Below are positions 25,924 through 34,112 of a stretch of DNA of 64,000 nucleotides, one piece after another. The stretch is from Thermohalobacter berrensis (GTDB taxonomy: Bacteria > Bacillota > Clostridia > Tissierellales > Thermohalobacteraceae). The DNA is taken from assembly GCF_003609645.1 (NCBI RefSeq), contig NZ_MCIB01000036.1:1-64000 (forward strand), written 5' to 3'. Within the stretch, counting starts at the first letter, position 1. The number at the start of each line of letters is the position of its first letter. The notes beneath the pieces were generated by a model. That model was given only the letters and a program-made list of their open reading frames with translations. It was not told the DNA's origin and searched no databases. Position numbers and translations under genes: made by a program.

Positions 25924-25927
25924 AAGG

Positions 25928-25966
25928 AAAGCACCTAGATTTATTCTAGGTGCTTTTATTTTTTTG
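25928..25966 (+). terminator. Terminator after glmS
   Basis: AAGCACCTAGA and TCTAGGTGCTT form an 11-bp stem around a short loop, followed by TTATTTTTTT. Confidence 0.93.
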
Positions 25967-25988: not shown

Positions 25989-26013
25989 AATGTCACCATT
26001 TAATCGTGACATT
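25989..26013. promoter_or_regulatory. Upstream operator AATGTCAC-N9-GTGACATT
   Basis: Eight-base perfect inverted repeat centred about 30 bp upstream of the -35 box of the first PTS gene. The TGTCAC/GTGACA half-sites recur at 26094-26115, and a single one (TGTCAC) at 27608. It is a likely MtlR activator site; the assignment is inference. Confidence 0.6.
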
Positions 26014-26030: not shown

Positions 26031-26059
26031 TTGAAAACGTTGAAATTTCAACATATAAT
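26031..26059 (+). promoter_or_regulatory. Promoter of the first PTS gene, with GTTGAAATTTCAAC in the spacer
   Basis: TTGAAA (26031-26036) and TATAAT (26054-26059) are 17 bp apart, a good sigma-A promoter. The spacer holds a perfect 14-bp palindrome, GTTGAAATTTCAAC, at 26039-26052, which could be a repressor or catabolite-control site distinct from the TGTCAC repeats. Confidence 0.75.
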
Positions 26060-26093: not shown

Positions 26094-26115
26094 TGTCACT
26101 AACTAATTAGTGACA
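26094..26115. promoter_or_regulatory. Downstream operator TGTCACTAA-N4-TTAGTGACA
   Basis: Nine-base perfect arms with a 4-nt centre, between the transcription start (about 26066) and the PTS ribosome site. It shares half-sites with 25989-26013. Because it is in the leader it might also form an RNA hairpin. Confidence 0.6.
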
Positions 26116-26136: not shown

Positions 26137-27549
26137 ATGAGTACAAATCTAAGAGCAGAAAAAACGGTTTCTCAAGAAGGAGTAAGGGTAAAGATACAGA
26201 GATTTGGAAGATTCTTAAGTGGAATGGTTATGCCAAATATAGGAGCATTCATTGCTTGGGGATTGATTACAGCTTTATTTATACCAACAGGTTGGGTACC
26301 AAATGAAAAACTTTCCAGTCTAGTAGGACCAATGATATTATACCTATTACCACTACTTATAGGATATACAGGAGGAAAGCTTGTATCAGGAATAAGAGGA
26401 GGAGTAATAGGAGCAGTAGCAACAATGGGAGTAGTAGTTGGAGTAGATATCCCAATGTTTATTGGAGCAATGATAATGGGACCATTGGGAGGATATGTAA
26501 TAAAGAAATTTGATAAAGCAATAGAAGGAAAAATACCCGAAGGGTTTGAGATGTTAATAAATAATTTTTCAGCAGGAATTATGGGTATGGTATTAGCAAT
26601 ATTAGCATACTTAGGAATAGGACCATTAGTATTAGGATTAAATAATGCCTTAAAGGCAGGGGTAGAGGTAATAGTAAATGCAGGATTATTACCACTAGCA
26701 TCATTATTTATTGAACCAGGAAAGATATTATTTCTAAACAATGCAATAAACCATGGAGTATTAAGTCCATTAGGATTACAGGAAGCAAAGGAGATAGGAA
26801 AATCAATCTTCTTCTTATTAGAGACAAATCCAGGACCAGGACTAGGAATATTATTAGCATACTGGGTATTTAGTAAGGGTATGTCAAAACAGTCAGCACC
26901 GGGAGCAATAATAATTCACTTTTTAGGAGGAATTCATGAAATATATTTCCCATATGTGTTAATGAAGCCAATATTAGTACTAGCAGTAATAGCAGGAGGA
27001 GCAAGTGGAGTATTTACATTTAGCATATTAGGAGCAGGGTTAGTGGCAACACCATCACCAGGAAGTATATTTGCATTACTAGCAATGACACCAAAGGGAG
27101 GATTTATACCAGTAATATTAGGTGTAATAGTATCAGCAACAGTATCATTCTTAGTAGCATCCTTCTTCATTAAGAGATCAGGAACAGAAGAAGACCTAGA
27201 TAAGGCAAAGGAAAGGGTAAAAGAATTAAAAAATAAAAAGGAAGATAAGAAAATAGAGATAAAGAAAGCAGATAATGTAAATAAAATAGTATTTGCATGT
27301 GATGCAGGAATGGGTTCAAGTGCAATGGGAGCATCAAGATTAAGAAATAGGATAAATAAAAATGGATTAGATATAGAGGTAGTAAATAGTTCAATAGAAG
27401 AAATACCAAGTGATGCAGATATAGTAATAAGTCATAAGAGTTTAACAGAGAGGGCAAAAGTGGTAGCCCCTAACGCTGAACATATTTCAATAGATGACTT
27501 TATAAATAGTCCGGTATATGATGAATTGATTGATAGATTAAAAAAATAA
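26137..27549 (+). CDS. Mannitol-type PTS transporter, EIICB (copy 1, no EIIA)
   Basis: 470 residues. The EIIC domain (about residues 15-345, eight or so helices) begins [20 protein letters not shown] and includes NHGVLSPLG and [13 protein letters not shown], the conserved GIHE loop of mannitol permeases. The EIIB domain (about 385-470) carries the phosphorylated Cys in [19 protein letters not shown] is absent, so phosphate must come from another protein, such as the EIIA of copy 2. The nucleotide sequence from 26170 to about 27534 is nearly the same as 29950-31314, with about 14 differences by eye, all but one silent. It has its own promoter and terminator. The sugar is probably a hexitol. 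Confidence 0.9.
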
Positions 27550-27553
27550 ACAT

Positions 27554-27595
27554 AAAGGAAAACAGCAAGAAAAGGTTCTTGCTGTTTTCCTTTTT
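27554..27595 (+). terminator. Terminator after PTS copy 1
   Basis: AAAGGAAAACAGCAAGAA pairs with TTCTTGCTGTTTTCCTTT over a 4-nt loop and ends in T, an 18-bp stem. It isolates copy 1 from the regulator operon. Confidence 0.94.
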
Positions 27596-27646
27596 AAAAT
27601 TTAATAATGTCACTATTTATAACAGACAAATAGAATTATCTTTTCA

Positions 27647-27686
27647 TTGAATTACTGAAAAGAACGGTGTTACAATAAAAGTAACA
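27647..27686 (+). promoter_or_regulatory. Promoter of the regulator operon with overlapping TGTTAC-N7-GTAACA
   Basis: TTGAAT (27647) and TACAAT (27671) are 18 bp apart. The inverted repeat TGTTAC-N7-GTAACA at 27668-27686 covers the -10 box and resembles the TGTCAC/GTGACA sites upstream of PTS copy 1. This suggests autoregulation by MtlR; inference. Confidence 0.5.
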
Positions 27687-27758
27687 AAGATATATTATTT
27701 AAAAATGTCGTTAATCTTTATAGAGAGCTGCTTTTAATTAAGTAGGAGGTGTATTCAA

Positions 27759-29879
27759 ATTAACCTTAAGTTAAGCTCTAGGGCAAAATCTATTCTTTTA
27801 ATGTTGGCTGATGCATCAGATACTTTGACAATTAAGGAAATAGCAAAAAAAATTGGAGTAAGTTCTAGAACTATATTAAGGGAAATGCCTAAAATAGAGA
27901 AATGGATTAAGGAAAATGGATTTAAGCTTATAAAAAAACCAGGAGTAGGATTGCAATTAGATGAAACTTTAGAGAATAGAGCTCGAATGAAGGAATTATT
28001 AAAGCAAGAAAATATAGAGAAAAGTTATACTCCTCAAGAAAGACAATTCATATTAATTAATGAATTATTAAAGATGAAAGAACCAGTTAAATTATATTAC
28101 TTTAAATCTATGTTTAATGTTACTAGTGGTACCATAACTAAAGATTTGGATAAAATTGAAGGCTGGTTTGAAAAACATAACTTAAAATTAATTCGAAAAC
28201 CTGGATTTGGGGTTTATGTAGAAGGAAAGGAAGAAGACTTTAGACAAGCTTTAATTGACTTATTATATGAAAATTTAGATATAGACCAATTAATTCATAT
28301 TTTAAATAAAAAAGTAGAGGGTTCAATAGATACTCAAAACAAAATAGAAGTAAATGTCCGTAATAGACTATTTAACTTAATAGATAAACAGACAACTATG
28401 AAGATTGAAGATATAGTACAAAGTATAGAAAATAAAATGGGACGAAAATTAACAGATAGTGCATTTGTGGGTTTAGTAGTTCATCTTGCTTTAGCAGTAC
28501 AGAGGATAAAAAATAACGAAAAAATTATAATAAATAAAGAAATTTTAGAGGAATTAAAATCAACAAGTGAATTTAACTTTGCAAAACTATTAGCTGAAAA
28601 AATTACAGAAACTTTTAAAGTTAATATACCAGAAGATGAAATAGGATATATTACAATGCATTTAAGGGGAGCTAAAATATATAATTCGGACAAGATTGAA
28701 GAAGAAGTTATTCAAAAATTTGAATTAATTAAAATTGCTAAAGAAATGTTAAAAGTTGTAGAGAATGAAACAGGATATATTTTAAGATACAATGATAGGC
28801 TTTTATTAGATTTAGTAACTCATCTTATACCAGCAATAAATCGTCTAAAATTAAATCTAAGTATAAGAAATCCTTTACTTGAAGAAATAAAGGAAAACTA
28901 TCCAGAAATATTTGAGATTAGTACTAAAAGTGCCAAAGTTTTAGAAGAAAAATATAATGTAAAAATACCTGAATCAGAAATAGGATATATAGCTATGCAT
29001 TTAGGTGCAGTAATTGAAGGGAATGTTTCTCAGAAAGAAGCACTATATAATGTAGTAGTTGTCTGTGCAAGTGGTATAGGAACCTCAAAAATGTTAGCTG
29101 CTAGATTAGAAAGAGAATTTAAAAGTATAAAAATTATAGATGTTGTATCAAATATTGAATTAGACAATAATTGGCTAAGTGATAATAATATCGAATTAAT
29201 AATATCGACAACTAACATAGAAAATGAACAAGTTGATACAGTGGTAGTAACTCCCTTTCTTACTGATGAAGATAAACTCAAAATAGAAGGAAAATTAAGA
29301 AAAGTTGACAAGATCAGAAAAATGCGAAAAAAACCTCGTAAATCTAAACCTAAGTCAACTTCTAGTTTTAAAAACAACATGAAATTAATAAGGGAATATA
29401 GTGATTCAATATTACAACTTTTAAATAACTTTTATTTCAAGGATAATGTTTGTGTTAATAGCATAGAAGAACTGATTGAATTTGTTAGCCAACTTATGAT
29501 TGAAGAAGACCATAAAAAGGTATTAGCTGATAAACTAAAGGCGAGAGAAAAACAAGGACACACTATTCTAAAAGATAAAAAAATAATATTATTACACTGC
29601 CGTTCAAAAGTAGTAAAAGAAATAAGTTGTGGGGTTGTAAAGCTAAAAAATAAAATTAATAATAATTTAACTAATCAAGAAATCAGTACAGCTTTAATAC
29701 TAATTGCACCAAAGGAAAGTAGTAAAGCAAGTTTAGAAGTAATAAGTGAAATTAGTAGAGCTTTAGTTGAAAATGAGTATCTAACTGAAATATTAATATC
29801 TAAGGGTAAAGATGAAATTTACGAAGAATTTAGTAAATTATTAAATAATTTTTATTCAGCTAAAGCTAGAAACATCTAA
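27759..29879 (+). CDS. mtlR: MtlR-type PTS regulator (HTH, two PRDs, EIIB- and EIIA-like domains), ATT start
   Basis: About 706 residues if translation starts at ATT 27759. Domains in order: two winged HTH (about 1-165), PRD1 (about 200-310) and PRD2 (about 320-420, with AMHLGAV), an EIIB-like domain with Cys in VVVCASGIGTSKMLAARLE (about 425-510), and an EIIA-like domain (about 560-700, with ILLHCRSKVV). Phosphorylation of these sites by the PTS normally sets activity. The first ATG, 27801, has no ribosome site, whereas AGGAGG at 27744-27749 points to ATT 27759. The added NLKLSSRAKSILLMLADAS is what family N-termini look like. It is followed 43 nt later by the second PTS gene. Confidence 0.9.
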   Translation: MNLKLSSRAKSILLMLADASDTLTIKEIAKKIGVSSRTILREMPKIEKWIKENGFKLIKKPGVGLQLDETLENRARMKELLKQENIEKSYTPQERQFILINELLKMKEPVKLYYFKSMFNVTSGTITKDLDKIEGWFEKHNLKLIRKPGFGVYVEGKEEDFRQALIDLLYENLDIDQLIHILNKKVEGSIDTQNKIEVNVRNRLFNLIDKQTTMKIEDIVQSIENKMGRKLTDSAFVGLVVHLALAVQRIKNNEKIIINKEILEELKSTSEFNFAKLLAEKITETFKVNIPEDEIGYITMHLRGAKIYNSDKIEEEVIQKFELIKIAKEMLKVVENETGYILRYNDRLLLDLVTHLIPAINRLKLNLSIRNPLLEEIKENYPEIFEISTKSAKVLEEKYNVKIPESEIGYIAMHLGAVIEGNVSQKEALYNVVVVCASGIGTSKMLAARLEREFKSIKIIDVVSNIELDNNWLSDNNIELIISTTNIENEQVDTVVVTPFLTDEDKLKIEGKLRKVDKIRKMRKKPRKSKPKSTSSFKNNMKLIREYSDSILQLLNNFYFKDNVCVNSIEELIEFVSQLMIEEDHKKVLADKLKAREKQGHTILKDKKIILLHCRSKVVKEISCGVVKLKNKINNNLTNQEISTALILIAPKESSKASLEVISEISRALVENEYLTEILISKGKDEIYEEFSKLLNNFYSAKARNI

Positions 29880-29922
29880 ATATTGCAAGTATTCAGAAAC
29901 ATATTAAATGGGAGGAATAACA

Positions 29923-31800
29923 ATGAAGACAGATGTTGTTAACCAAACTTCTCAAGAAGGAGTAAGGGTAAAGATACAGAGATTTGGAAGATTCTTAAGT
30001 GGAATGGTTATGCCAAATATAGGAGCATTCATTGCTTGGGGATTGATTACAGCTTTATTTATACCAACAGGTTGGGTACCAAATGAAAAACTTTCCAGTC
30101 TAGTAGGACCAATGATATTATACCTATTACCACTACTTATAGGATATACAGGAGGAAAGCTTGTATCAGGAATAAGAGGAGGAGTAATAGGAGCAGTAGC
30201 AACAATGGGAGTAGTAGTTGGAGTAGATATCCCAATGTTTATTGGAGCAATGATAATGGGACCATTAGGAGGATATGTAATAAAGAAATTTGATAAAGCA
30301 ATAGAAGGAAAAATACCCGAAGGGTTTGAGATGTTAATAAATAATTTTTCAGCAGGAATTATGGGTATGGTATTAGCAATATTAGCATACTTAGGAATAG
30401 GACCATTAGTATTAGGATTAAATAATGCCTTAAAGGCAGGGGTAGAGGTAATAGTAAATGCAGGATTATTACCACTAGCATCATTATTTATTGAACCAGG
30501 AAAGATATTATTTCTAAACAATGCAATAAACCATGGAGTATTAAGTCCATTAGGATTACAGGAAGCAAAGGAGATAGGAAAATCAATCTTCTTCTTATTA
30601 GAGACAAATCCAGGACCAGGACTAGGAATATTATTAGCATATTGGGTATTTAGTAAGGGTATGTCAAAACAATCAGCACCAGGAGCAATAATAATCCACT
30701 TTTTAGGAGGAATTCACGAAATATATTTCCCATATGTGTTAATGAAGCCAATATTAGTACTAGCAGTAATAGCAGGAGGAGCAAGTGGAGTATTTACATT
30801 TAGCATATTAGGAGCAGGATTAGTGGCAACACCATCACCAGGAAGTATATTTGCATTACTAGCAATGACACCAAAGGGAGGATTTATACCAGTAATATTA
30901 GGTGTAATAGTATCAGCAACAGTATCATTCTTAGTAGCATCCTTCTTCATTAAGAGATCAGGAACAGAAGAAGACCTAGATAAGGCAAAGGAAAGGGTAA
31001 AAGAATTAAAAAATAAAAAGGAAGATAAAAAAGTAGAGATAAAGAAAGCAGATAATGTAAATAAAATAGTATTTGCATGTGATGCAGGAATGGGTTCAAG
31101 TGCAATGGGAGCATCAAGATTAAGAAATAGGATAAATAAAAATGGATTAGATATAGAAGTTGTAAATAGTTCCATAGAAGAAATACCAAGTGATGCAGAT
31201 ATAGTAATAAGTCATAAGAGTTTAACAGAGAGGGCAAAAGTAGTAGCCCCTAATGCTGAACATATTTCAATAGATGACTTTATAAATAGTCCGGTATATG
31301 ATGAATTGATTAGTAAATTGAAAAGAAATAAGGGGGGAGAAACTGATAATACAGATAAAAAAGAAAGTGATAACAATGTATTAAAGAAAGAAAATATAAA
31401 ATTACAACTTGAGAGTGTAGATAAGTATGAAGCAATTAAAATAGCTGGTCAGTTACTTGTAGATGGTGGATATGTAAGTTCAGATTATATAGATGATATG
31501 AAAGAAAGGGAAGAGAAACTAACAACATATATAGGAAAGGGAATTGCAATTCCACATGGTACGGAATCTTCAAAAGAAAATGTAAATAAATCTGGAATTG
31601 TAGTATTACAGTTTCCTAATGGAGTTGATTTTGGTGATGGAAATACTGCTTACTTAGTAATAGGGATAGCTGGTAAAGGAAAAGAGCATTTACAAATACT
31701 GTCAAATCTGGCGACTGTGTTAGATGATAATGATATCGTACAAAAGCTTGTAAAGACAAATAATGTAGATACAGTATATGAAGTATTTACATCTAACTAG
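29923..31800 (+). CDS. mtlA: Mannitol-type PTS transporter, EIICBA fusion (copy 2)
   Basis: 625 residues. EIIC and EIIB match copy 1 in nearly every residue (one Ile to Val change seen in the linker, DKKVEIKK). After residue 465 a linker leads to an EIIA domain with the phosphorylated His in [11 protein letters not shown]. So this copy is a complete EIICBA and could also supply EIIA to copy 1. I use ATG 29923, with GGGAGGAA 8 nt upstream; an ATG at 29908 lies on that ribosome site. It is in the mtlR-EII-pfkB-dehydrogenase operon. The last shared bases are near 31314; beyond this the sequences differ completely. Confidence 0.93.
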
Positions 31801-31826
31801 AAATAAAAAGGTTTGGAGGAATGAAT

Positions 31827-32756
31827 ATGATTACTACAATTACATTAAATCCAGCTATAGATAAAACTATTACAACAAATGAATTTAATATTGGCTCTGT
31901 AAACAGGGTTACATCTACTAGGGTAGATGCTGCAGGAAAAGGAATAAATGTTTCAAAGGTAATAAAGGCATTAGGTGGAGAAAGTAAGGCAATAGGCATT
32001 TTTGCTGGTAATTCAGGTGAGTTTATAAAACAAGAATTAGATAAATTAGGTATTCAAAACGACTTTATAATGGTTAATGGAGAAACAAGAACAAATATAA
32101 AAGTTGTAGATATTAAAAATCAAGTTACAACTGAAATAAATGAAAAGGGGCCATTTATTGAAGATAAAGACCTAAGAAGGATAAAGGAAAAAATAGTTGA
32201 TATTATACCTGAAGATTCAGTAGCAGTTTTTTCGGGAAGTGTTCCTCAAAATGTTGATATAGATATATATAAATTTTTAATAGAAAAAGCAAAGGAAAAG
32301 GGAGTAAAGTGCATATTAGATACTTCTAAAAAATTATTAAGTGAGGGTATAAAAGCAGGACCATATTTAGTAAAACCAAATATTCATGAGTTAGAAGAAT
32401 TATTTGGTAAGAGACTAGATAGTTACAAGAAAGTTGTAGATGTAACAAAAGATATTTTCAAATATGGAATAGAATATATTGTTGTTTCACTTGGTAAAGA
32501 TGGTTCCTTGTTTATAACTAAAGATAAGGCCGCATTAGTAGAAGGAATGAAGGTTGATGTTAAGAGTACAGTAGGGGCAGGAGATTCAATGGTTGCTGCA
32601 TTAGCTTTAGCTATAGATAAAAATTATCCATTTGAAGGGATTATAAAACTAGCGTCAGCAACTAGTACTGCTAGTGTAATGACTGAGGGAACACAACCGG
32701 GAAGTATTGAAACTATAAGAAGCTTAGAAAACAAAGTAAAATTTAAATACATTTAA
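31827..32756 (+). CDS. fruK: 1-phosphofructokinase (PfkB family)
   Basis: 309 residues. MITTITLNPAIDKTI is the typical FruK start. GKGINVSKVIKALGG (substrate and lid) and the ATP/catalytic motif STVGAGDSMVAALALAI with the catalytic Asp are present. ATG 31827 is chosen over 31821, which is 1 nt from the GGAGG. The enzyme makes fructose-1,6-bisphosphate from fructose-1-phosphate. Its place between a mannitol-type PTS and a dehydrogenase is unusual because the classic mannitol route gives fructose-6-phosphate. Tagatose-6-phosphate kinase activity is the main alternative. Confidence 0.9.
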   Translation: MITTITLNPAIDKTITTNEFNIGSVNRVTSTRVDAAGKGINVSKVIKALGGESKAIGIFAGNSGEFIKQELDKLGIQNDFIMVNGETRTNIKVVDIKNQVTTEINEKGPFIEDKDLRRIKEKIVDIIPEDSVAVFSGSVPQNVDIDIYKFLIEKAKEKGVKCILDTSKKLLSEGIKAGPYLVKPNIHELEELFGKRLDSYKKVVDVTKDIFKYGIEYIVVSLGKDGSLFITKDKAALVEGMKVDVKSTVGAGDSMVAALALAIDKNYPFEGIIKLASATSTASVMTEGTQPGSIETIRSLENKVKFKYI

Positions 32757-32787
32757 TAGAAAAATAATAAAAAGGGGAGAGGTAAAT

Positions 32788-34050
32788 ATGAAAACAAGGG
32801 CAGTAAGATTATATGCCAAAAATGATTTAAGACTAGAAGAATTTGAGTTACCAGAAATAAAAGAAGATGAAATATTAGCAAAAGTAGTATCAAATAGTAT
32901 ATGTATGTCAACATATAAGGCTGTTATACAAGGTACAAAACATAAGAGGGTACCTGAAGATATTGCAGAAAATCCAATTATTACTGGCCATGAATTTGCA
33001 GGTGAAATAGTAAAGGTAGGAGCTAAATGGAAAGATCAATTTAAAGAAGGTAGTAAATTTGCATTACAGCCGGCTTTAAACTATAAAGGAAAACCATATT
33101 CTCCAGGGTATTCATATAAATATTTTGGAGGAAATGCAACATATATTATAATTCCTAATGAAGTAATGGAACTTGGATGCTTATTAAATTATGATGGAGA
33201 TGCTTTTTATGAAGCATCATTAGCAGAACCTATGTCCTGTATAATAGGAGCTTTCCATGCAAACTACCACACTAAGGCTGGAGTGTATGAACATTTTATG
33301 GATGTAAAAGAAGGAGGAAACATGGCATTACTTGGAGCTGCAGGACCAATGGGGCTAGGAGCTATTGACTATGCAATTCACCGTGATAGGAAACCAAAAA
33401 TGCTAGTTGTAACAGATATTGACGAAGAAAGATTAGAAAGGGCACGCTCAATTTTAACTGAAGAAGATGCTAGAAAAAATGGAGTAGAACTAAAGTATGT
33501 AAATACTAAAGATATAGATAATGTAAGTGAATATTTACGCTCACTTACAGGTGGAGAAGGATATGATGATGTATTTGTCTATGCTCCAGTGGAACCACTT
33601 ATAGAAGATGCAGATAAAATATTAGCCAAAGATGGATGTCTAAACTTTTTTGCAGGGCCAACTGATAAAAACTTTTCTGCAGAACTAAACTTCTATAATG
33701 TACACTATGCTTCAACACATATAGTAGGAACAAGTGGAGGAAACACAGATGATTTAAAGGAATCTTTGGAAATGACAAGTAAAGGATTAATTAATCCAGC
33801 CGTTATGATTACACATGTTGGAGGCTTAAACAGTGTTAAAGATACAACACTTAATTTGCCTAATATCCCTGGGGGTAAAAAATTAATATATACACATGTT
33901 GATATGGAATTAACTGCTATAGAGGATTTTGAAGAAAAGGGAAAAACTGATGACTTCTTTGCAGAACTTGCACAAATTGTTAAGAAAAATAATGGACTAT
34001 GGTCGTTAGAAGCAGAAAGATTCTTATTAGAAAATAAAAGTATAAAGTAG
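32788..34050 (+). CDS. Zinc-dependent dehydrogenase, L-sorbose-1-phosphate reductase (SorE)-like
   Basis: 420 residues of the medium-chain dehydrogenase type. Catalytic zinc ligands are suggested by SICMSTYK (Cys near 38), ITGHEFAGE (His-Glu near 67) and LAEPMSC (Glu). The four-Cys structural zinc lobe is missing. The Rossmann motif appears as ALLGAAGPMGLGAIDYAI, with VVTDIDEERL after it. Sequence style is closest to what I recall of SorE, which interconverts sorbose-1-phosphate and glucitol-6-phosphate. With a mannitol-type PTS and 1-phosphofructokinase next to it, it may oxidise mannitol-1-phosphate at C2. AGGGGAGAGG-like site upstream; last gene of the operon. Confidence 0.72.
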   Translation: MKTRAVRLYAKNDLRLEEFELPEIKEDEILAKVVSNSICMSTYKAVIQGTKHKRVPEDIAENPIITGHEFAGEIVKVGAKWKDQFKEGSKFALQPALNYKGKPYSPGYSYKYFGGNATYIIIPNEVMELGCLLNYDGDAFYEASLAEPMSCIIGAFHANYHTKAGVYEHFMDVKEGGNMALLGAAGPMGLGAIDYAIHRDRKPKMLVVTDIDEERLERARSILTEEDARKNGVELKYVNTKDIDNVSEYLRSLTGGEGYDDVFVYAPVEPLIEDADKILAKDGCLNFFAGPTDKNFSAELNFYNVHYASTHIVGTSGGNTDDLKESLEMTSKGLINPAVMITHVGGLNSVKDTTLNLPNIPGGKKLIYTHVDMELTAIEDFEEKGKTDDFFAELAQIVKKNNGLWSLEAERFLLENKSIK

Positions 34051-34069
34051 AATAACAATAAAGTATTAT

Positions 34070-34112
34070 AAGTCAGGGGACTGGTTAGATCCGGTCCCCT
34101 GACTTGTTTTTT
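34070..34112 (+). terminator. Terminator of the PTS-fruK-dehydrogenase operon
   Basis: AAGTCAGGGGAC and GTCCCCTGACTT form a 12-bp perfect stem, then GTTTTTT. Confidence 0.94.

Follow-up and report, generated by a model that had tools for sequence, protein, structure and literature searches.

A stretch of 64,000 nucleotides from the anaerobic bacterium Thermohalobacter berrensis (GCF_003609645.1, NZ_MCIB01000036.1, positions 1-64,000 of the forward strand), which is called the window in the following, contains a mannitol-type operon, in which a 1-phosphofructokinase (FruK) and a 420-aa zinc dehydrogenase of the medium-chain dehydrogenase/reductase (MDR) family (DH) are encoded in place of the usual mannitol-1-phosphate dehydrogenase MtlD. 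This operon probably encodes a route of mannitol degradation that runs via fructose-1-phosphate (F1P). Mannitol would be taken up by the MtlA-type phosphotransferase system (PTS) and be converted to mannitol-1-phosphate, DH would oxidize C2, the carbon next to the phosphate, with NAD and yield D-fructose-1-phosphate, and FruK would convert F1P to fructose-1,6-bisphosphate (FBP). Glycolysis would thus be entered without fructose-6-phosphate (F6P) or 6-phosphofructokinase. The F1P interpretation had been proposed in an initial annotation of this DNA, and it was supported by the mutual exclusion of MtlD and DH, by the co-occurrence of FruK and DH, by the common transporter family and, in some loci, by a shared operator. 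These are direct readings of gene content and gene order, while the substrate, regiochemistry, cofactor and product of DH are deduced.

MtlD oxidizes C5 of mannitol-1-phosphate, and the product is F6P. SorE interconverts L-sorbose-1-phosphate and glucitol-6-phosphate and acts beside the phosphate. Viewed from the phosphate end, mannitol-1-phosphate and glucitol-6-phosphate have the same configuration at their first three centres, and the fourth is the only one that distinguishes them. Oxidation beside the phosphate converts mannitol-1-phosphate to D-fructose-1-phosphate and glucitol-6-phosphate to L-sorbose-1-phosphate. Because mannitol is symmetrical, DH could act at the carbon next to the phosphate. 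The stereochemical comparison of the two hexitol phosphates, on which the initial annotation had been built, holds on paper from the established configurations.

The Mannitol_dh_C domain (PF08125), which is typical for MtlD, had no match in the T. berrensis genome, which is 100% complete, and the same search retrieved matches in 7 of 14 control genomes. A Pfam scan verified that DH itself is devoid of PF08125. The operon is thus not accompanied by an mtlD gene, as had been noted from the window. For a survey, 398 genomes of the phylum were used, and DH matches were accepted at E <= 1e-40. The mannitol EIIC family (mtlA) was found in 43 and DH in 30 of the 398 genomes (genomes are labeled G, with G000 for T. 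berrensis, and fetched loci L). All 43 mtlA genomes were searched for PF08125. DH had no match in 31 of them, and 30 of these 31 have an MtlD-sized PF08125 frame beside mtlA; the sole exception was G298, the mtlA of which was under the family cut-off. In contrast, DH was located in the mtl locus in 11 of the 43 mtlA genomes, and an MtlD-sized frame was found in none of these 11, so that the combination of DH operon and missing mtlD that had been expected for other genomes was indeed observed. The PF08125 matches in these 11 genomes were confined to open frames of 485-622 aa, a size that we take to be that of uronate reductases. The exclusion of MtlD and DH had a Fisher p of 2.8e-9, uncorrected for kinship. 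In G341 DH is distant from mtlA, and MtlD is retained beside mtlA. G231 was kept outside the 43 genomes, its mtlA being off its contig; its DH locus has a FruK, and its PF08125 match comprises 508 aa.

The 80 named loci are the top-ranking ones among at least 593 relatives and are no random sample. An MtlD-sized frame was found in 2 of the 24 genomes behind the mtl-linked loci among them, i.e., Halanaerobium polyolivorans (396 aa) and G412. The latter has an open frame of 374 aa, the 368-aa open reading frame (ORF) of which is 27% identical to MtlD and is located beside a fructose-type PTS. Two genomes are contained twice in this set (G414 = G363, G417 = G197), and the absence of MtlD is weak in some of the 24, because several are small metagenome assemblies. 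Taken together, the distribution indicates that DH is a non-homologous replacement of MtlD together with the downstream kinase.

The kinase reached 338 bits with the 1-phosphofructokinase equivalog model TIGR03828 (cut-off 292), far above its scores with the LacC (172 bits) and Pfk-2 (165 bits) models, and the earlier description as a 1-phosphofructokinase-like PfkB protein was thus confirmed. FruK adjoins DH in 26 of the 38 full-length mtl-linked rows, including the window; YggC is present instead in 3 of the other rows, and 9 have neither of the two kinases. FruK was not adjacent to any of the 75 DH homologues that have no mannitol PTS in their vicinity (51 in an SDR-type context, i.e., with a short-chain dehydrogenase/reductase, 23 in other contexts, 1 with a mannose PTS); in 19 of these 75, one of the two flanks is shorter than 3 kb. 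It was likewise absent within the fetched stretches of all 32 control mtlA loci (31 DH-less genomes and G341), in 31 of which mtlD follows the PTS genes. The prediction that the kinase accompanies the dehydrogenase was therefore borne out (26/38 versus 0/32), and it matches expectation that FruK is found with DH and not with MtlD, because MtlD yields F6P and needs no FruK. All 22 in-cluster FruKs checked, 6 from the sample and 16 from the named loci, were over the 1-phosphofructokinase cut-off; the FruKs of L098, L100, L101 and L102 are outside this set. YggC was present in none of the 25 FruK-bearing fetched loci, and FruK was beside DH in none of the 3 YggC loci. In G234, G003, G231 and G133 the mtl cluster contains the only FruK match. 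Where DH is not adjoined by FruK, a FruK that exceeds the cut-off is encoded at another place in the genome (G197, G363, G071, G296, G380, G416, G419); in G071 and G296 the best match reads across one TAA. The context counts do not include L150 (Anaerospora hongkongensis), the EIIC of which entered the EIIC tree. In this mannitol-type locus, a DeoR regulator and FruK are followed by DH in the form of two short frames, which is either a split gene or a sequencing error.

A different role of FruK would be possible if DH were a non-homologous mannitol-1-phosphate 5-dehydrogenase that yields F6P; FruK would then serve another purpose, e.g., the use of fructose that enters as F1P via the same PTS. 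DH occupies the place of MtlD, an intact PfkA-family gene is present in the T. berrensis genome, and the 9 mtl-linked rows with neither kinase would also fit. However, FruK was found in none of the 31 MtlD-type mtlA loci, nor in the one MtlD-less control, and this speaks against FruK serving fructose imported by MtlA, because it would be expected there as well. In addition, the T. berrensis genome already carries a canonical complete fru operon with its own FruK, and characterized SorE relatives act beside the phosphate. A 5-dehydrogenase is therefore regarded as unlikely. For the F1P route, the intact PfkA-family gene limits the proposed bypass of 6-phosphofructokinase to the degradation of mannitol; the claim would be valid for this route and does not extend to the cell as a whole.

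The window FruK shares 60% identity with the fru-operon FruK of T. berrensis and 35-50% with six other mtl-linked FruKs. In a FruK tree, from which duplicates were excluded (the FruK of L217, which equals that of L150, was included), 25 of 27 mtl-linked FruKs were found together, beside the FruKs of fru operons, and 2 were apart. The FruK of L217 and a FruK from a fru operon form a group with a support of 100, and the FruK of L055 is on a long branch; both look like separate recruitments. The context label requires 4 changes on this tree, 2 of which are forced by starred branches, so that FruK was recruited into DH-mtl operons at least two times. A recent duplication of FruK in T. berrensis was also considered and was rejected, because the window FruK is located among other mtl-linked FruKs in the tree.

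The two EIIC proteins of the operon scored 554 bits (EIICB) and 553 bits (EIICBA) with the mannitol EIIC model TIGR00851 (cut-off 468), and EIICBA aligns with E. coli MtlA over 606 aa at 57% identity. An EIIC tree was calculated with 75 EIICs, which were labeled with their partner DH or MtlD (the duplicate rows L052 = L123 and L054 = L134 were kept). Six changes of the partner label are required on this tree. Of these, 4 are forced by starred branches, so that MtlD and DH must have been exchanged for one another four times or more. The window EIIC belongs to a starred group of 49 rows with 33 DH and 16 MtlD partners, and the two partner types are most closely intermingled in a starred fork of 11 rows (6 DH, 5 MtlD). 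An operator-like inverted repeat, TGTCAC-N9/10-GTGACA, precedes the start of the EIIC gene by 20-148 bp in MtlD-type loci (L179, L181, L185, L190 and L206, 4 of these 5 being from one family group) as well as in DH-type loci (L096, L099, L130, L161 and the window). The exact motif is present in 12 of 250 loci, and most loci of both types are without it; in L029, L031 and L060 it is present at positions other than before an EIIC. Because the EIIC tree mixes DH and MtlD partners and because some operons of both types share the operator, the sugar of the operon is most likely mannitol.

Another hexitol, chiefly D-glucitol, would require that DH converts glucitol-6-phosphate to L-sorbose-1-phosphate, the reversal of the SorE reaction, and that FruK generates L-sorbose-1,6-bisphosphate. 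The homology of DH to SorE, with which it shares 50% identity, and the substrate pair of SorE would be in accordance with this. The family of the EIIC, its similarity to MtlA and its position among MtlD-linked EIICs argue against it, and SorE proper groups apart and occurs with a mannose-family PTS. Furthermore, aldolase cleavage would give L-glyceraldehyde-3-phosphate, a poor glycolytic substrate. Degradation of glucitol is thus very unlikely.

DH contains the Pfam domains ADH_N and ADH_zinc_N, and no NCBIfam cut-off was reached among the matches. The T. berrensis genome encodes four ADH_zinc_N proteins, two of which are the window DH and a homologue on contig C6. The window DH is 58% identical to E. 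coli YggP and 50% identical to Klebsiella SorE. A DH tree with 115 rows, which also retained the duplicate rows L052 = L123 and L054 = L134, was calculated with a quick method and SH-aLRT support only. All 38 mtl-linked DHs, including the window DH and YggP (L062), were found in one group of 40 rows (support 99), and 38 of these 40 rows adjoin a mannitol-type EII; the three SorE-type rows, which are on long branches, formed a separate group at 99. The term SorE-like, which had been chosen at first, is therefore appropriate for the wider family and inappropriate for the group, which is that of YggP.

C39, H68, E69, E147, D210, H52, K53, K364 and K365 are invariant in the DH alignment, including YggP and SorE. 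C39, H68, E69 and E147 presumably are the residues of the MDR zinc site, and D210 is the residue that we would expect for NAD; the putative roles of the invariant residues in zinc, NAD and phosphate binding, the last for H52-K53 and K364-K365, follow from the general features of the MDR family. The predicted DH structure has an MDR fold (mean pLDDT 89.6, residues 291-311 poorly modeled), and a fold search retrieved polyol and zinc alcohol dehydrogenases from the PDB with Z scores of about 31-33. The matches confirm the MDR class of the modeled protein and do not bear on its substrate or regiochemistry. The names SorE, YggP and galactitol-1-phosphate dehydrogenase were not among the matches listed (50 per fold search), which is uninformative.

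The contexts of the DH homologues could also point to a pentitol or a rarer hexitol such as arabitol or altritol, which would be taken up by an MtlA-like PTS and be metabolized by DH and a PfkB protein, the specificity of which had shifted. An SDR of the sorbitol-6-phosphate dehydrogenase type is located near DH homologues in 51 of the 115 tree rows, in some cases together with an FGGY kinase. In the window, however, the kinase exceeds the 1-phosphofructokinase cut-off and scores far lower with the LacC and Pfk-2 models, and its relatives group beside the FruKs of fru operons, so that such a substrate is highly improbable.

In E. coli, the cmtBA-yggP-yggF-fumE-yggC cluster (NC_000913) resembles the window in that a mannitol-type EII is encoded beside a DH of the same supported group, which is annotated as a putative dehydrogenase. 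In contrast to the window, YggC, a member of a P-loop kinase family, and the bisphosphatase YggF are present in place of FruK. It is tempting to speculate that the whole mtl-linked DH group, including YggP, consists of mannitol-1-phosphate 2-dehydrogenases that form F1P, that they constitute a second widespread bacterial mannitol pathway that has repeatedly been swapped with MtlD, and that YggC is an independent F1P kinase in those cases in which FruK is lacking, with YggF handling FBP in E. coli. This extension is a tentative one and is rather doubtful at present; if it were true, the cryptic cmt/ygg cluster would gain a function.

Several observations weigh against the F1P route. The 9 mtl-linked DH rows with neither FruK nor YggC beside DH represent 7 distinct proteins (L052 = L123, L054 = L134). 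E. coli has YggP without FruK in the cluster and retains MtlD elsewhere (mtlAD). A pairs test on the EIIC tree yielded 4 independent pairs on starred branches, which is too small a number for significance; FruK went with DH in 2-3 of them and in none the reverse, with p values of 0.25-0.5. L059 and L060 belong to the mtl-linked DH group, but a mannitol PTS is absent from their fetched stretches, and the neighbour of DH is a gene of the FBP aldolase family. In H. polyolivorans, a true MtlD is encoded in another mtl-type cluster in addition to the DH cluster. Lastly, Soehngenia longivitae (L134), one of the DH rows without FruK or YggC and without PF08125, is described as mannitol-negative, but also as glucose- and fructose-negative, in the accessible part of the report (PMC7763609).

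According to the accessible part of its description, H. polyolivorans grows on mannitol and does not grow on sorbitol, dulcitol or L-sorbose, and the use of mannitol is ascribed to an mtlD step to F6P (PMC10536098). This phenotype had been considered as a proof of the substrate and was dropped, because the genome carries both systems, including the canonical MtlD in the other cluster, so that growth on mannitol proves nothing for DH. The last gene of the MtlD cluster encodes an ATP-type PfkA, whereas FruK is encoded in the DH cluster, a single case that fits the route. The MtlD cluster (L237, G409:C51) encodes an Rpe/allulose-epimerase-like protein, 6-phospho-3-hexuloisomerase, MtlD, EIIA, a mannitol-type EIICB and PfkA, and it is perhaps a route for a rarer hexitol. 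Defluviitalea phaphyphila grows on mannitol, and a pathway legend in the available part of the paper lists mannitol-1-phosphate dehydrogenase together with 1-phosphofructokinase (PMC4818487). A search of the open-access literature found nothing on Geosporobacter and mannitol. The oxidation of mannitol-1-phosphate to F1P or a function of YggP was not described in the available parts of the open-access literature, a scope outside of which most subscription papers lie. The mannitol PTS operon as such is of a known kind, and the step via F1P would be new.

The canonical mtlA-mtlR-mtlF-mtlD operon has the EIIC family, MtlR, EIIA and gene order in common with the window and, in some loci, the operator motif, but it has MtlD, which leads to F6P, where the window has FruK and DH. 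The fruR-fruK-fruA operon encodes a homologous FruK for the step from F1P to FBP, and in that case F1P originates from the uptake of fructose, whereas it would come from mannitol-1-phosphate in the window. Klebsiella SorE is a homologous zinc MDR protein with the invariant residues in common, but the SorE loci examined contain mannose-family EIIA/B/C/D and an SDR and neither a mannitol EII nor FruK. Haloarchaeal mannitol degradation also involves a mannitol dehydrogenase of the MDR family, and F1P is named 24 times in the respective paper; the accessible part describes ABC uptake and oxidation of unphosphorylated mannitol to fructose, in contrast to a PTS and a mannitol-1-phosphate step (PMC11519228).

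If the route via F1P is correct, many Clostridia and Halanaerobiales degrade mannitol without F6P and 6-phosphofructokinase, which would change the view of how mannitol flux is controlled and how it is to be predicted from genomes. It would also supply a testable reaction for the DH group including E. coli YggP, for which no assigned function was found, and it would be a clear case of a catabolic enzyme that has been replaced non-homologously along with the downstream kinase.

The features of the operon are compiled in Table 1. ORFs and family models verified the operon of a mannitol-type EIICBA, a PfkB protein and a zinc dehydrogenase; the initial gene list was correct for these three, but a second EIIC gene (EIICB) and MtlR are encoded within the same region and had not been listed. 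The designation MtlR is based on domain make-up and position, with no curated model over its cut-off.

Table 1. Genes and putative signals of the mannitol-type operon in the T. berrensis window.
Feature	Position	Strand	Basis or remark
Terminator-like hairpin preceding the operon	25927-25957		
Operator-like inverted repeat TGTCAC-N9-GTGACA	25991-26011	+	upstream of the promoter-like site
Sigma-70-like promoter TTGAAA-17-TATAAT	26031-26059	+	11/12 consensus
Operator-like inverted repeat TGTCAC-N10-GTGACA	26094-26115	unassigned	
EIICB, mannitol PTS, 470 aa	26137-27549	+	ORF list and family models
MtlR-type PTS regulation domain (PRD) regulator	27801-29879	+	HTH_11, Mga, two PRD, EIIB-like, EIIA_2
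EIICBA, mannitol PTS, 630 aa	29908-31800	+	ORF list and family models
1-Phosphofructokinase FruK (PfkB), 311 aa	31821-32756	+	TIGR03828
YggP/SorE-type zinc MDR dehydrogenase, 420 aa	32788-34050	+	proposed mannitol-1-phosphate 2-dehydrogenase
Terminator-like hairpin at the operon end	34068-34107	+	17 pairs and T tail

The frames of all five genes (26137-34050) are intact and on the same strand, and the gaps are 28 bp between MtlR and EIICBA, 20 bp between EIICBA and FruK, and 31 bp between FruK and DH. The promoter-like site is a consensus match only, as 51 such sites are present in the region versus 45.7 expected. It is bracketed by the two inverted repeats. These were the only 2 matches to the TGTCAC-N9/10-GTGACA repeat in the window, versus 0 in 100 shuffles, and the N10 repeat is the only fit to the N10 form in the T. 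berrensis genome (<=1 mismatch). The EIICB and EIICBA genes are 98.6% identical over 1383 bp of DNA. An EIIC pair of Petrocella (L130) is 99.3% identical over 993 bp, and the pairs of Geosporobacter are about 69% identical; the near-identical pairs suggest that an EIIC gene that has been doubled repeatedly was duplicated recently or underwent gene conversion.

The operon could in principle be a decayed leftover without a catabolic role, and a second, cmt-like cluster in the same genome indeed has broken frames for a pyrophosphate-dependent phosphofructokinase (PPi-PFK) and MtlR. However, the five genes of the window are intact, closely packed and located between promoter- and terminator-like signals, and the same gene order recurs across Clostridia and Halanaerobiales, so that decay is hardly conceivable. 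The second cluster (L031, G000:C6:14000-30000) is cmt/ygg-like with PPi-PFK, MtlR, EIIA, a YggC kinase, EIICB and a DH that is 66% identical to the window DH. It looks decayed, because stop codons interrupt the PFK match and two frames share the MtlR sequence. A further locus of the genome (L075, G000:C34:18000-36000) encodes EIIA, EIIB and EIIC that are galactitol-like by sequence, a PHP-like protein and a third PfkB, which is 33% identical to the window FruK. In the cmt-like cluster of Photobacterium (L065), yggC is likewise followed by a PHP-like gene.

An HPr-like gene with a HARP motif is located near DH in 16 of the 25 FruK-bearing loci and in 5 of the 9 mtl loci without FruK. It is downstream of DH in, e.g., L049, L051, L100, L119 and L130, and family models confirmed both enzyme I (EI) and HPr in L100. 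No EI-sized ORF follows DH in the window in the list of ORFs of at least 90 aa, which a short HPr could escape.

L059 additionally has an FGGY-kinase-like gene nearby, and the enzymes of L059 and L060 are perhaps shifted to another substrate. In L044 (G202:C29), DH is beside a 422-aa ORF with a Mannitol_dh_C match there (open frame 425 aa), with no mannitol PTS in the fetched stretch. Among the loci without mtl linkage (L034-L048, L053, L103-L174), DH homologues are repeatedly accompanied by an SDR that belongs to the sorbitol-6-phosphate dehydrogenase family. Some of these loci contain a rhamnulokinase-like FGGY kinase, and L034 contains a 2-oxoacid dehydrogenase complex and LipA/LipB. These DH/SDR loci perhaps represent an unrecognized pathway for polyols or deoxy-sugars.

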